Assembly: GCA_003559475.1 (NCBI GenBank)
Contig: PWLF01000285.1
Span: 1-32,302 of the forward strand
Reading direction: 5' to 3'
DNA from: Bacteroidales bacterium
GTDB lineage: Bacteria > Bacteroidota > Bacteroidia > Bacteroidales > UBA7960
Length of the DNA: 32,302 nt
Under the pieces are notes generated by a model, which was not told the DNA's origin, did no database searches, and worked only from the letters and a program-made list of their open reading frames with translations. Position 1 is the first letter of the stretch; every line of letters begins with the position of its first letter. Positions 6,963 to 19,091 of the stretch are shown here, one piece after another. The position numbers and the translations under genes are program-made.

Positions 6963-8309
6963 ATGGATACAAAAAAGTTTTTTATTTATGGGGTACTTTC
7001 ATTAGTATCATTTTTACTTATTTTAATTACAAGTTGTGATAAAGACAACATTTCCGATGGTGGAGAGAACGGCTCGCGAGATTTATTGGATGGACAACTG
7101 ACCAAAATTGGAGAAGAGGGAAATTATTTTAACATTTTTTTTATTGAACCTGTTGATGGTTTTGATATAGGAAATATTACAGTTGTGAGTACGGATGGCG
7201 AAAAATCAAATTTAAGGACTATTGCAACAATTGATAATCCTATATTAGCTGAAACAGCAAGTATTATGATAGATAGATATCCTGAGTTTACAAGTTATGA
7301 TGGTACCAATATTGAAGTAAATATTGGCATGAAGTTTACAGAAGATGGTATTTCTTTTATGGGTACCGGAGAGACATCTGTAAAATCAGGAGCTGTTAAT
7401 AGAGAGCAGGTTTTAGTTAGATACGATGCTAAAGTTGGCGATATTTTTAGCACATCTCTTCATGGCAGAACACAAAGCCAAAAGGTTATTTCAAGTCATG
7501 AGCAAAAAAGTGTCTCTTATCTGATATTAGAATTAATAGAACATGATATACCAAATCTTATTAGCTTGAATACATATTACAATAGCATGAATGGATTTTC
7601 AGGAGGGGTTGCTACATTTGAAGGTGGTATAGAAATTAATTTTAATGTAAGTAGTAAAAACTCAAATGAGCCGATTGACAACGGTGATGACGATGGTGAT
7701 ATTGAATACGGAGAAATGACAGATCCCAGAGATGGGCAAACTTATAAAACAGTAGAAATCGGTGACCAGATATGGATGGCTGAAAATATTGCTTACCTAC
7801 CCGAAATAACTTATGAAAATGACTGGGATAGTGAAACCGAACCACAATATGCAGTTTATGATTATGCTCCTGGTAGTGGAACTGAAACTGTTCCAAATGC
7901 TAAGGCCAGCGAAAATTACGAGATTTATGGAGTTCTTTATAATTGGTCGGCTGCGATTCAAGCATGCCCTACGGGATGGCATTTACCAAGTGATGCTGAA
8001 TTCACAGAATTAGTAAATTATTTAGGAGGGGAAGATGTTGCCGGTGGTAAGCTAAAAGCCACAACTCATTGGGAAAGTCCAAACTTTGGTGCAACTAATG
8101 TTAGTGGTTTTACAGCCCTCCCCGGGGGGTCCCGCTTCCGTTCAGGAGCATTCAACAATATTGAAACCAACGGTGGCTGGTGGACTACTACGGATCGTGA
8201 TGATTTGACTGCATGGTATTATGCCTTGCACTACACTCATAGCAAGATGAATAGATTCAGTGGCAATAGGGGCGCGGGTTTTTCTGTCCGTTGCATAAAA
8301 AACAATTAA
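6963..8309 (+). CDS. Lipoprotein with C-terminal FISUMP domain
   Basis: Lipobox 'LILITSCDKD'; 'DPRDGQTYKTVEIGDQIWMAENIAYLPE', 'YGVLYNWSAAIQACPTGWHLPSDAEFTELVNYLGG' and C-term 'GFSVRCIKNN' are FISUMP signatures. Confidence 0.9.
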   Translation: MDTKKFFIYGVLSLVSFLLILITSCDKDNISDGGENGSRDLLDGQLTKIGEEGNYFNIFFIEPVDGFDIGNITVVSTDGEKSNLRTIATIDNPILAETASIMIDRYPEFTSYDGTNIEVNIGMKFTEDGISFMGTGETSVKSGAVNREQVLVRYDAKVGDIFSTSLHGRTQSQKVISSHEQKSVSYLILELIEHDIPNLISLNTYYNSMNGFSGGVATFEGGIEINFNVSSKNSNEPIDNGDDDGDIEYGEMTDPRDGQTYKTVEIGDQIWMAENIAYLPEITYENDWDSETEPQYAVYDYAPGSGTETVPNAKASENYEIYGVLYNWSAAIQACPTGWHLPSDAEFTELVNYLGGEDVAGGKLKATTHWESPNFGATNVSGFTALPGGSRFRSGAFNNIETNGGWWTTTDRDDLTAWYYALHYTHSKMNRFSGNRGAGFSVRCIKNN

Positions 8310-14733: not shown

Positions 14734-16764
14734 ATGATAAAAAATAAACTGAGAGAATTAATATTGCTTTTATCCGTTATTGGACTGTTATCAGTGAATA
14801 ATCTTAAGGCTAATGAAAACGAAATAACACTAATTTTTACATCAGAGTATGTTTGTTCATGGACTCCACTTGAATATATAGTTGTAGAAAATGTAACACA
14901 AGATGCAGAAATAACACTTGATTATCCAGATACCGTATTAGTATTACCTTTTTCAACCGGCATTGGCGATATTTCAGGAGATTATAATGATTTGTATGTT
15001 TCACAAAACTATCCAAATCCTTTTTCCAAAAAAACACATATTGATATTAGTATTGTGGAGAAAGATGATCTTACCATAACTGTTTATGATATTACCGGGA
15101 GGAAGTTAACAAGTTATAACGCTGAGTTAGAGCCAAACGTTCATAATTTTACCTTTTATGCTTGTAATGAACAATCCTATATTTTAAAAGTAACTTCCAA
15201 AAAACATAAGGAAAAACAGTTGATGATACAAACTGGAAAGACAGGAGAAGGGATTTCAAGAATAGAATATAATGGAATAACATCAAAAACCGAAAAACGT
15301 CAGCAAACATCAAAAACTGAACTTCCTTTTGATAAAGGAGATGTGTTAAGATTTACCGGATATATAGGTGATGATTATGATGAAATTGTTGAAAAAATTA
15401 CAGAGGATAAAGATTATATTTTTTATATTCTCAACACTGTTCCCAATGCTCCAATTGCAGTTTCTGCAACAAATATCGAATACGATGGTTTTACGGCAAA
15501 CTGGGAGAATGTTTCCGGTTTTGAAGTAACCCATTATTTGTTGGATGTTTCAACAGATAGCGATTTTAGCTCTTATATTATTGAACAAGAAGATATAGGC
15601 GATGATACGGATTATGAAGTAACTGATTTAGATCCCGGTACGGAATATCATTACAGGGTTTATGCAGTAAATGAATGTGGAACCTCAGATGCATCAAATG
15701 TAATTGATGTTGAGACAATATGTCCTGAGCCGGATGTACCATCTGCGACAAATGCAACAAATATAGAAGAGCATGCATTTACGGCAAATTGGGAAGAAGT
15801 AACATCATACCCTGCTGTTACTCATTATCTGTTAGATGTTTCCACAAATATCAATTTTTCTTCTTTTGTAGCTGATTATGAGCAAAAAAATGTTGGAAAT
15901 AACACCAGTGACCTAGTAACGGATTTAGACCCCTCTACTGAATACTACTATAGGGTATTTGCGGTAAATAGTTGTGGAACATCTGATGCTTCAGATGTAA
16001 TAGAAGTTGAGACGGAAGAAATTGAGCTTCCGTTAAAATGCTCTCCCTGCAATGGCATTACTGAAGTTAGTTGTATTTATAGTGGAGAAACATACGGTGT
16101 GGTCGAAGTAGAATATACAGTAGAAGGGATAACACAGAATTGTTGCTGGCTTGACAGAAATCTTGGTGCTTCAAATGATTGCGATAATTACGATGATTAT
16201 GAATGTTATGGCGACTTGTTTCAGTGGGGAAGATTAGCTGATGGACATCAATTGATAAACTGGACTTGTGGTGATGCAGATAATTGTGGAACTCCTGAAC
16301 ATGGAACAACAACAACTCTTGCTACAAGTGATAATCCCGGGCATAACGAATTTATTACAAATAGTAATCCTAATTTTGATTGGTTAGGTAATGATCATCA
16401 AAACAATAATTTATGGAAAACTGATAACGGCACAATACAAAATAACCCTTGTCCTGCCGGCTGGCGTGTTCCAACAGAAGATGAGTGGCAGGCAGAATTA
16501 GATACCTGGGATTGGTCTGAATCAGGAGACACTCCTATAACAGAGGCTCTTGCATCAGCTCTTAAATTACCTGTTGCAGGCAACCGCTCCGGCACCAATG
16601 GATCGTTCAACAATGTAGGTTCCTTCGGCGACTATTGGTCAAGTAATGCAGATGGGAATAACTCGCTTGCCTTGTTCTTCCGTAGCAATATTGCCGGTAT
16701 GGGTGCCGGATACTTCCGGGCTAGCGGACGCTCAGTAAGATGCATAAAGGATGACCCAAATTAA
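14734..16764 (+). CDS. Multidomain surface protein: N-terminal T9SS-tail-like domain, two fibronectin type III domains, C-terminal FISUMP domain
   Basis: 'VSQNYPNPFSKKTHIDISIVEKDDLTITVYDITGRKLTSY' (Por_Secre_tail-like) near the N-terminus; two 'PDAPSATNIEYDGFTANWENV...YLLDVSTD..F..Y....VTDLDPGTEYHYRVYAVNECGTSDASN' Fn3 units; 'NNPCPAGWRVPTEDEWQAEL...GRSVRCIKDD' FISUMP end. Confidence 0.88.
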   Translation: MIKNKLRELILLLSVIGLLSVNNLKANENEITLIFTSEYVCSWTPLEYIVVENVTQDAEITLDYPDTVLVLPFSTGIGDISGDYNDLYVSQNYPNPFSKKTHIDISIVEKDDLTITVYDITGRKLTSYNAELEPNVHNFTFYACNEQSYILKVTSKKHKEKQLMIQTGKTGEGISRIEYNGITSKTEKRQQTSKTELPFDKGDVLRFTGYIGDDYDEIVEKITEDKDYIFYILNTVPNAPIAVSATNIEYDGFTANWENVSGFEVTHYLLDVSTDSDFSSYIIEQEDIGDDTDYEVTDLDPGTEYHYRVYAVNECGTSDASNVIDVETICPEPDVPSATNATNIEEHAFTANWEEVTSYPAVTHYLLDVSTNINFSSFVADYEQKNVGNNTSDLVTDLDPSTEYYYRVFAVNSCGTSDASDVIEVETEEIELPLKCSPCNGITEVSCIYSGETYGVVEVEYTVEGITQNCCWLDRNLGASNDCDNYDDYECYGDLFQWGRLADGHQLINWTCGDADNCGTPEHGTTTTLATSDNPGHNEFITNSNPNFDWLGNDHQNNNLWKTDNGTIQNNPCPAGWRVPTEDEWQAELDTWDWSESGDTPITEALASALKLPVAGNRSGTNGSFNNVGSFGDYWSSNADGNNSLALFFRSNIAGMGAGYFRASGRSVRCIKDDPN

Positions 16765-17153: not shown

Positions 17154-19091
17154 ATGAAAAGACTAATTAACACATTCGTTTTGAGCATTTTATGCATTAG
17201 CGTTTTAGCACAAGCACCACAAATGTTTAACTATCAGGCAGTGCTGAGAAATGATTCAGGAGAGCCGATTCCATTGCAGTCGGTAACTGTAACCATAGAA
17301 ATTCTAAAGGGCAGTGCAACAGGCAACTCTGTTTTTAGCGAAACGCATAATACCCAAACCAACAAATTTGGTTTGATAAACCTGCAAATTGGCTCCGAGG
17401 AATCACTTGATGGAGTTGACTGGGCAGCAGATGATCACTTTATAGAGATAATTGTTGATGGCACATCAATAGGCACTACCCGACTGTTGGGCGCGCCTTA
17501 TGCTTTATATGCAGGATCTACAACCGAAACTGACCCCGTTTTTAATGCTTGGGATAAATCTACGGGAATTTCTATAACCGAAAGTCAAATCAGCGACTTA
17601 GGAGCTTACATTGAAACCGAAACTGACCCTGTTTTTGATGCTTGGGATAAATCTACGGGAATTTCTATAACCGAAAGTCAAATCAGCGACTTTGGAACTT
17701 ACATTGAAACAGAAACTGACCCTGTTTTTAATGCTTGGGATAAATCTACGGGAATTTCTATAACCGAAAGTCAAATCAGTGATTTAGGAACTTATATTGA
17801 AACAGAAACTGACCCTGTTTTTAATGCTTGGGATAAATCTACGGGAATTTCTATAACCGAAAGTCAAATCAGCGACTTAGGAACTTATATTGAAGCAGAA
17901 ACTGACCCTGTTTTTATGGCTTGGGATAAGGACTACAACGATCTGACAAACACGCCCAATATTCTTGATAGCATCAACACGCATGGATTTGACGGACAAT
18001 ACAGCAGTTTAGCAGGGCAACCCACAAATTTAAGTGATTTTACAAATGATATGGGATTTATAACAGAAGAAAACCAACAGCTTTCGGTATCTGATACAGG
18101 TGACACATTAAGATTAGAAAACGGTGGGTTTGTAATCATACCCGGAATTAGTGTTGCAAATTCCCCTGACCAATTAGCAAGCTTAACTACCTCGGCAGTA
18201 ACAGAAATATCGTCTCACTCAGCAGTATCAGGAGGCAATATAACTGACGAGGGGCTTGGTCCAATTATTGCTCGTGGAGTTTGCTGGAGCACTTCAATGA
18301 ATCCGACAACAGCTAATTCTCATACAACTGATGGTACAGGCACCGGTAGTTTTACAAGTGATATCGCAGGTCTGTTAGCCAACACCACATATTATGTGCG
18401 TGCTTATGCTACTAATAGTGTGGGTACAAGCTATGGTAATCAACAAAGTTTTACTACAATTGAGGATGGGTTAAATTCGGCTCTGACTTATGGAACTGTA
18501 ACAGATATTGATGGCAATACCTATGCTACTATTGAAATTGGCACACAAGAATGGATGGCACAAAATCTTCGCACATCCAGATATAGAAATGGCGACATTA
18601 TACCAAATGTTCCATGTAGTGAGGCATGGAATGATTTTGACATAGGCGCATGGACTCATTATGATGATGACAGCTCCTACGATTTCCCTTACGGAAAGAT
18701 GTATAATTGGCATGCAGCAGATGATCCCCGGGGAATATGCCCAACAGGTTGGAGTATACCCACCGATGCAGAATGGGAAGAACTAGCAGACCATTTAGGC
18801 GGCGCAACTATTGCCGGCGGCTTAATGAAATCAAGCGGTACAGAATACTGGACTAGCCCCAACGCAAATGCAAATAACCAGAGTGGTTTCTCCGGTCTGC
18901 CCGGCGGTTACATGTGGACCGGTGTTAATCTTGGCTTCTGGGAAATAAACAACTTCGGAAGCTGGTGGACTGCTACTGAGACTTCCGGAACCATTGCTAT
19001 TTCTCGTGGACTCTTTTATAATCATGGCAACTTGACCAGTAACACCCAAAATAAAACAACTGCACGATCGATTCGGTGCATCAAAGATTAA
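17154..19091 (+). CDS. Secreted FISUMP-domain protein with 31-aa tandem repeats
   Basis: Signal peptide then 'APQMFNYQAVLRNDSGEPIPLQSVTVTIEIL'; tandem ETDPVFNAWDKSTGISITESQISDLGTYIET units; Fn3-like 'ARGVCWSTSMNPTTANSHTTDGTGTGSFTSDIAGLLANTTYYVRAYATNSVGTSYG'; FISUMP C-term ending 'ARSIRCIKD'. Confidence 0.9.
   Translation: MKRLINTFVLSILCISVLAQAPQMFNYQAVLRNDSGEPIPLQSVTVTIEILKGSATGNSVFSETHNTQTNKFGLINLQIGSEESLDGVDWAADDHFIEIIVDGTSIGTTRLLGAPYALYAGSTTETDPVFNAWDKSTGISITESQISDLGAYIETETDPVFDAWDKSTGISITESQISDFGTYIETETDPVFNAWDKSTGISITESQISDLGTYIETETDPVFNAWDKSTGISITESQISDLGTYIEAETDPVFMAWDKDYNDLTNTPNILDSINTHGFDGQYSSLAGQPTNLSDFTNDMGFITEENQQLSVSDTGDTLRLENGGFVIIPGISVANSPDQLASLTTSAVTEISSHSAVSGGNITDEGLGPIIARGVCWSTSMNPTTANSHTTDGTGTGSFTSDIAGLLANTTYYVRAYATNSVGTSYGNQQSFTTIEDGLNSALTYGTVTDIDGNTYATIEIGTQEWMAQNLRTSRYRNGDIIPNVPCSEAWNDFDIGAWTHYDDDSSYDFPYGKMYNWHAADDPRGICPTGWSIPTDAEWEELADHLGGATIAGGLMKSSGTEYWTSPNANANNQSGFSGLPGGYMWTGVNLGFWEINNFGSWWTATETSGTIAISRGLFYNHGNLTSNTQNKTTARSIRCIKD
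17526..17930 (+). repeat. 93-bp (31-aa) in-frame tandem repeat, 4 full copies plus a partial fifth
   Basis: Units begin at 17526, 17619, 17712, 17805 and 17898 (partial, diverging after ETDPVFMAWDK); units nearly identical at nucleotide level. Confidence 0.95.

Follow-up and report, generated by a model that had tools for sequence, protein, structure and literature searches.

The final bases of a predicted lipoprotein gene in a Bacteroidales bacterium differ abruptly in composition from the rest of the gene. Diversity-generating retroelements (DGRs) are genetic systems that scramble protein binding sites, and the locus raises the question of whether such a system wrote this tail and, if so, where that system is now. 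The gene lies in a stretch of 32,302 nucleotides that is referred to here as the window. It is located on contig C78 of G000, a draft assembly of 3.18 Mb in 298 contigs that is 93.8% complete with 4% contamination.

A FISUMP lipoprotein gene with a GC-rich end

The following features define the gene.

6963–8309, + strand: FISUMP lipoprotein gene, 448 amino acids (open reading frame, TIGR02145 and PF09603; lipobox read by eye)
7713–8306, + strand: FISUMP (Fib_succ_major) domain (profile match and AlphaFold2 model)
8110–8189, + strand: GC-rich peak, highest 70-base G+C content of the window (sliding composition)

The 448-amino acid protein scores above the curated cut-offs of both TIGR02145 (E = 2.2e-42; 145.7 bits, cut-off 41.65) and PF09603 (E = 1.2e-37; 130.5 bits, cut-off 33.9). 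Its N-terminus, MDTKKFFIYGVLSLVSFLLILITSC, is predicted to be a lipoprotein-like signal peptide on the basis of a by-eye reading of the lipobox, and the peptide quoted in the initial annotation of this DNA is its C-terminus. AlphaFold2 yielded a confident model of the FISUMP domain (pLDDT 95, pTM 0.90). The top matches of this model among solved structures were mostly C-type lectin domains, all of which were non-significant (E of at least 0.1), and a search of solved structures by sequence found none for the domain. Because these matches lend the fold weak support, its assignment draws mainly on published homology, from which the domain is probably C-type-lectin-like.

The initial annotation had described an abrupt switch to GC-rich DNA at the end of the gene, and that description proved accurate. 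The segment 8115–8184 contains 42 G+C in 70 bases, the highest value in the window; only 4 of 32,233 overlapping 70-base segments reach this count, and all 4 fall within the 8110–8189 cluster, in the final third of the FISUMP domain. The gene body has a GC content of 0.35 and a GC3 of 0.22, whereas the last 198 bases have values of 0.48 and 0.50. We considered whether the jump is a family-wide trait of FISUMP genes and ruled this out, as the tail is a GC3 outlier among 70 FISUMP tails of the same genome (mean 0.27, sd 0.07), ranking first in GC3 and third in tail GC. The window has five GC peaks, three of which (8110–8189, 16661–16735, and 18853–18925) coincide with FISUMP gene ends.

DGRs that write FISUMP tails in related genomes

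A genome of the same family, G010, contains a complete DGR (locus L140) that consists of a reverse transcriptase (RT) with the motifs GLPIGNLTSQ and YVDD, two Avd-like open reading frames, a template repeat (TR), and a FISUMP target. The TR and the variable region (VR) form a 205-bp repeat with 41 mismatches, 36 of which are at template A. The target is a 768-residue FISUMP protein whose variable copy comprises the last 65 codons, the same place as the tail studied here. This DGR, together with published Fib_succ_major DGR targets from human stool metagenomes (PMC4159848), bears out the earlier proposal that the FISUMP C-terminus is a DGR substrate. The stool targets, such as the predicted lipoprotein SRS014459.31157, share with the 448-amino acid protein the domain, its C-terminal position, and the lipoprotein character; however, those systems have a DGR with its TR (PMC4159848), whereas neither TR nor RT was found in G000.

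The DGR of G063 writes another type of FISUMP tail (24 TR/VR mismatches, 22 at A), and further FISUMP-writing DGRs occur within the order in G091, G111, and G034. DGR RTs of the G010 kind are present in 2 of 47 genomes of the family. Among viral contigs, this RT had one distant match, which carries its own TR/VR pair, and a scan for the GC-rich core pattern found none. Phages with a FISUMP domain are represented by five distant records.

The tail retains the framework of a related template

All 85 FISUMP tails of the genome were compared with five DGR templates, and the best match of each was taken. The tail of the 448-amino acid protein aligns with the G010 template as follows.

8115–8297, + strand: VR-like tail, about 61 codons (gap-free alignment to the G010 DGR template)

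In this alignment, template A sites are changed at 34 of 67 positions and non-A sites at 33 of 116 (Fisher P = 0.004); residue changes affect 17 of 22 AAY codons compared with 15 of 39 other codons (P = 0.007). This contrast is weak when taken alone because every FISUMP tail varies at these positions; the A-site mismatch of 0.51 in the 8115–8297 tail is comparable to the mean of 0.55 across the 85 tails. Adenines of the G010 template, which belongs to another genus and stands in for a template of the tail's own, carry 34 of its 67 mismatches. In intact TR/VR pairs, usually at least 75% of mismatches are at A (PMC8144416).

Since A sites vary in all tails, the discriminating signal comes from sites that have not changed, namely third positions, non-A positions, and silent sites. 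The third-position mismatch is 0.40 in the 8115–8297 tail versus a mean of 0.69 (sd 0.08) for the 85 tails, and the mismatch at non-A first and second positions is 0.19 versus 0.33 (sd 0.075). Its identity to the templates ranks second among the 85. Template AAY codons read NNY in 20 of 22 cases (0.91; genome mean 0.65), the two exceptions being TCA and AAG, and some framework residues depart from the G010 template (R to Y). Silent identity amounts to 17 of 26 codons, a small number, where GC3-matched resampling expects 8.9 (P = 0.0008); this resampling shows that GC3 by itself does not account for the match. One housekeeping gene, compared between these two genomes, gives a silent identity of 125/297 (42%). 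Within the FISUMP domain itself, the tail exceeds the body in silent identity, both for G010 (0.62 versus 0.38) and for Geofilum rubicundum (0.68 versus 0.47). The 8115–8297 tail therefore has what a relic VR should have kept: at non-A and silent sites it preserves a related template's framework, its variable codons mostly read NNY, and it ends a probable C-type-lectin-like domain whose family includes known DGR targets.

Two further FISUMP tails in the window have GC peaks.

14734–16764, + strand: second FISUMP gene, 676 amino acids, with T9SS sorting-like and fn3 domains (open reading frame and profiles)
16567–16764, + strand: second VR-like tail, G063-like (identical at 22/34 silent sites; z = 4.4, first among the 85 tails)
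18853–19091, + strand: third GC-rich FISUMP tail, in the gene at 17154–19091 (GC peak)

The GC3-matched z-scores of the 8115–8297 tail (3.5) and the 16567–16764 tail are the two highest of 425 tail/template pairs (mean 0.13, sd 1.06), so that the two best template matches among the 85 tails both lie inside the window. The signature of the 16567–16764 tail is the stronger one and points to a different template type; its values against the G063 template are from a gapped alignment, the ungapped one being off by one codon near the end. The body of the 676-amino acid gene is closest to paralogues of its own genome, while its tail is closest to VRs of other genomes. Its FISUMP match does not reach the curated cut-off. 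The T9SS type A sorting-like domain of this protein lies near the N-terminus (residues 93–165) and is followed by fn3 and FISUMP, an unusual order because T9SS sorting domains are normally C-terminal. Compared codon by codon, the 18853–19091 tail matches none of the templates.

Search for the RT, Avd, and template

The initial annotation had suggested a TR and an RT elsewhere in the genome, an expectation that the assembly contradicts within its 93.8% completeness. The segment 8100–8309 is single-copy, with no second copy in the assembly, and no TR near-identical to it outside adenines was found. The sole RVT_1 gene of the genome was rejected as a DGR RT, as it encodes a type IX retron RT (RT_IX, E = 1e-138) next to its HTH_IX partner. 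This retron (L018 346–3315, contig C251) comprises HTH_IX, RT_IX, and a downstream 360-residue open reading frame that has no PADLOC match.

No DGR RT was present in the four genomes of the genus, namely G000 and three others. One of these, G003, has two RTs that were likewise rejected, one of group II type and one retron-like; the latter adjoins a FISUMP gene but on the opposite strand and without a TR. We also inferred a template by restoring the AAY codons of the 8115–8297 tail as AAC or AAT. A search with it across the genus recovered only the tail of the 448-amino acid gene and, in G001 and G002, tails that have diverged; no template-like sequence emerged. Remnants of an RT, Avd, or TR were absent from the window and from the FISUMP loci that were fetched. 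The Avd-like family has one copy in the host genome; the surrounding 3.3 kb hold no template, and the copy was rejected as a trace of a DGR.

The description of the tail as a DGR-type variable region thus stands as far as its template framework at silent sites and its NNY codons are concerned, but not in regard to an RT and a TR, both of which are missing from the 94%-complete assembly. Their absence, which the initial annotation had named as a ground for rejecting its proposal, speaks against an active DGR and not against a past one.

Origin of the tail

We favor a model, derived from these sequence comparisons, in which the 8115–8297 tail was shaped by a DGR and is now an orphan, most likely a fossil VR whose DGR has been lost. 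An ancestor would have possessed a DGR with a template of the lineage now found in G010. Mutagenic retrohoming would have copied the template RNA into the gene for the 448-amino acid protein, replacing its tail and leaving behind the GC-rich NNC/NNT framework of the template. The AAY codons, which may line the ligand face of the probable C-type-lectin-like domain on a predicted surface lipoprotein, would have been randomized in the process. A template that moves between genera and overwrites a resident tail would produce foreign composition in the tail alone, a common silent framework, and randomized NNY codons. The RT, Avd, and TR would afterwards have been lost from the genus, or were perhaps never fixed there, and the silent and framework sites of the tail would have drifted since. 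This drift, the absence of both RT and TR from the genomes of the genus, and a stop-broken copy in G002 (see below) all point to a relic; as neither DGR machinery nor a template was found in the genome, the likeliest status of the tail is that of a leftover. The protein has probably kept the ability to bind one fixed ligand.

An ordinary FISUMP tail might look similar if the ligand-binding face of a large paralogue family were under diversifying selection and its GC-rich codons had arrived by horizontal gene transfer; DGR templates, being copies of FISUMP genes, would resemble such a tail. Almost all of the genome's 91 FISUMP matches have variable tails without a DGR signature, which fits this view, as do a FISUMP body in the 448-amino acid protein that scores higher against genes of other genomes than against its own paralogues (143 versus 117 bits) and an A-site mismatch no higher than that of other tails. 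We consider it unlikely, however, in light of a composition shift that is confined to the tail while the GC3 of the body is native, a silent-site template match that after GC3 matching is strongest in 2 of 85 tails, and the native body of the 676-amino acid gene, whose tail alone looks foreign. That combination of native body and foreign tail could also reflect gene conversion. The 8115–8297 tail would then stem from a different FISUMP gene, itself a foreign VR, and no DGR would have written it in this lineage. Many paralogues could recombine, but the genome has no donor with a near-identical tail, and this route appears highly improbable.

We consider it rather improbable that the tail is still diversified by a DGR whose RT and template reside in the missing ~6% of the genome, in contigs that were not assembled, or on a mobile element that acts in trans. 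Such an arrangement would fit an incomplete assembly in 298 contigs, a tail that is still an open frame with most AAY sites ending in C or T, and the DGRs of 2 of 47 family genomes. It is at odds with the lack of a DGR RT in all four genomes of the genus, the failure of both direct and inferred-template searches, and framework and silent drift above that of intact pairs, in which such sites are essentially identical.

On this model, the tail would belong to an already known kind, the orphan DGR variable region. In Treponema denticola isolates that have neither an RT nor a TR, DGR target genes are orphaned (PMC4891356) and are likewise read as remnants of lost DGRs. There, the template persists in sister isolates (PMC4891356), whereas for the 8115–8297 tail it does so only in other genera. 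The closest comparison is the G010 DGR, with which the locus shares a FISUMP target, a gap-free alignment of tail and template, and a common silent framework; it differs in that G010 has its RT, Avd-like frames, and TR, with mismatches concentrated at A, while our tail is measured against that foreign template. In Legionella, a DGR varies a surface-displayed lipoprotein (Arambula 2013, as cited in PMC8144416) and is active in its own island; the surface location of the 448-amino acid lipoprotein is predicted.

DGRs are usually detected by their RT, so that VRs whose DGR has gone are overlooked. Such orphans can be flagged without a template of their own when their silent sites and NNY codons are compared to those templates that related genera carry. 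If our model is true, binding sites written by DGRs persist after the DGR is gone, and the extent of their decay can be used to date them. A far more tentative idea, which we find doubtful, is that horizontally roaming DGRs with at least two different templates wrote into resident FISUMP genes 8 kb apart and then left, and that part of the 91-domain family is an archive of frozen VRs that grade from clear to faded.

FISUMP tails across the genus and in Geofilum

The three same-genus genomes have 10–14 FISUMP matches each, compared with 91 in the host genome. The expansion in the host is exceptional and lineage-specific, and its members are frequently tandem and close to contig ends. In one recently duplicated gene pair (C62/C94) that was examined for A-bias, conservation of one tail exceeds that of its own body and the other tail has diverged; no A-bias was apparent by eye, and ordinary divergence is therefore the rule in that pair.

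G002, which has no DGR RT, contains two more VR-like tails, one of them in a stop-broken gene. This FISUMP pseudogene (L212 4170–4840, minus strand, contig C49) has several stops and adjoins a probable tRNA-Pro. Adenine mutagenesis could not have produced its stops (TAA at an AAC site and TAG at a GAG site), which probably reflect later decay. A protein of Geofilum rubicundum (L230 1986–3629) has two tandem FISUMP domains, one for each tail type, and an integrase gene is located on the other strand ~0.9 kb upstream of its gene.
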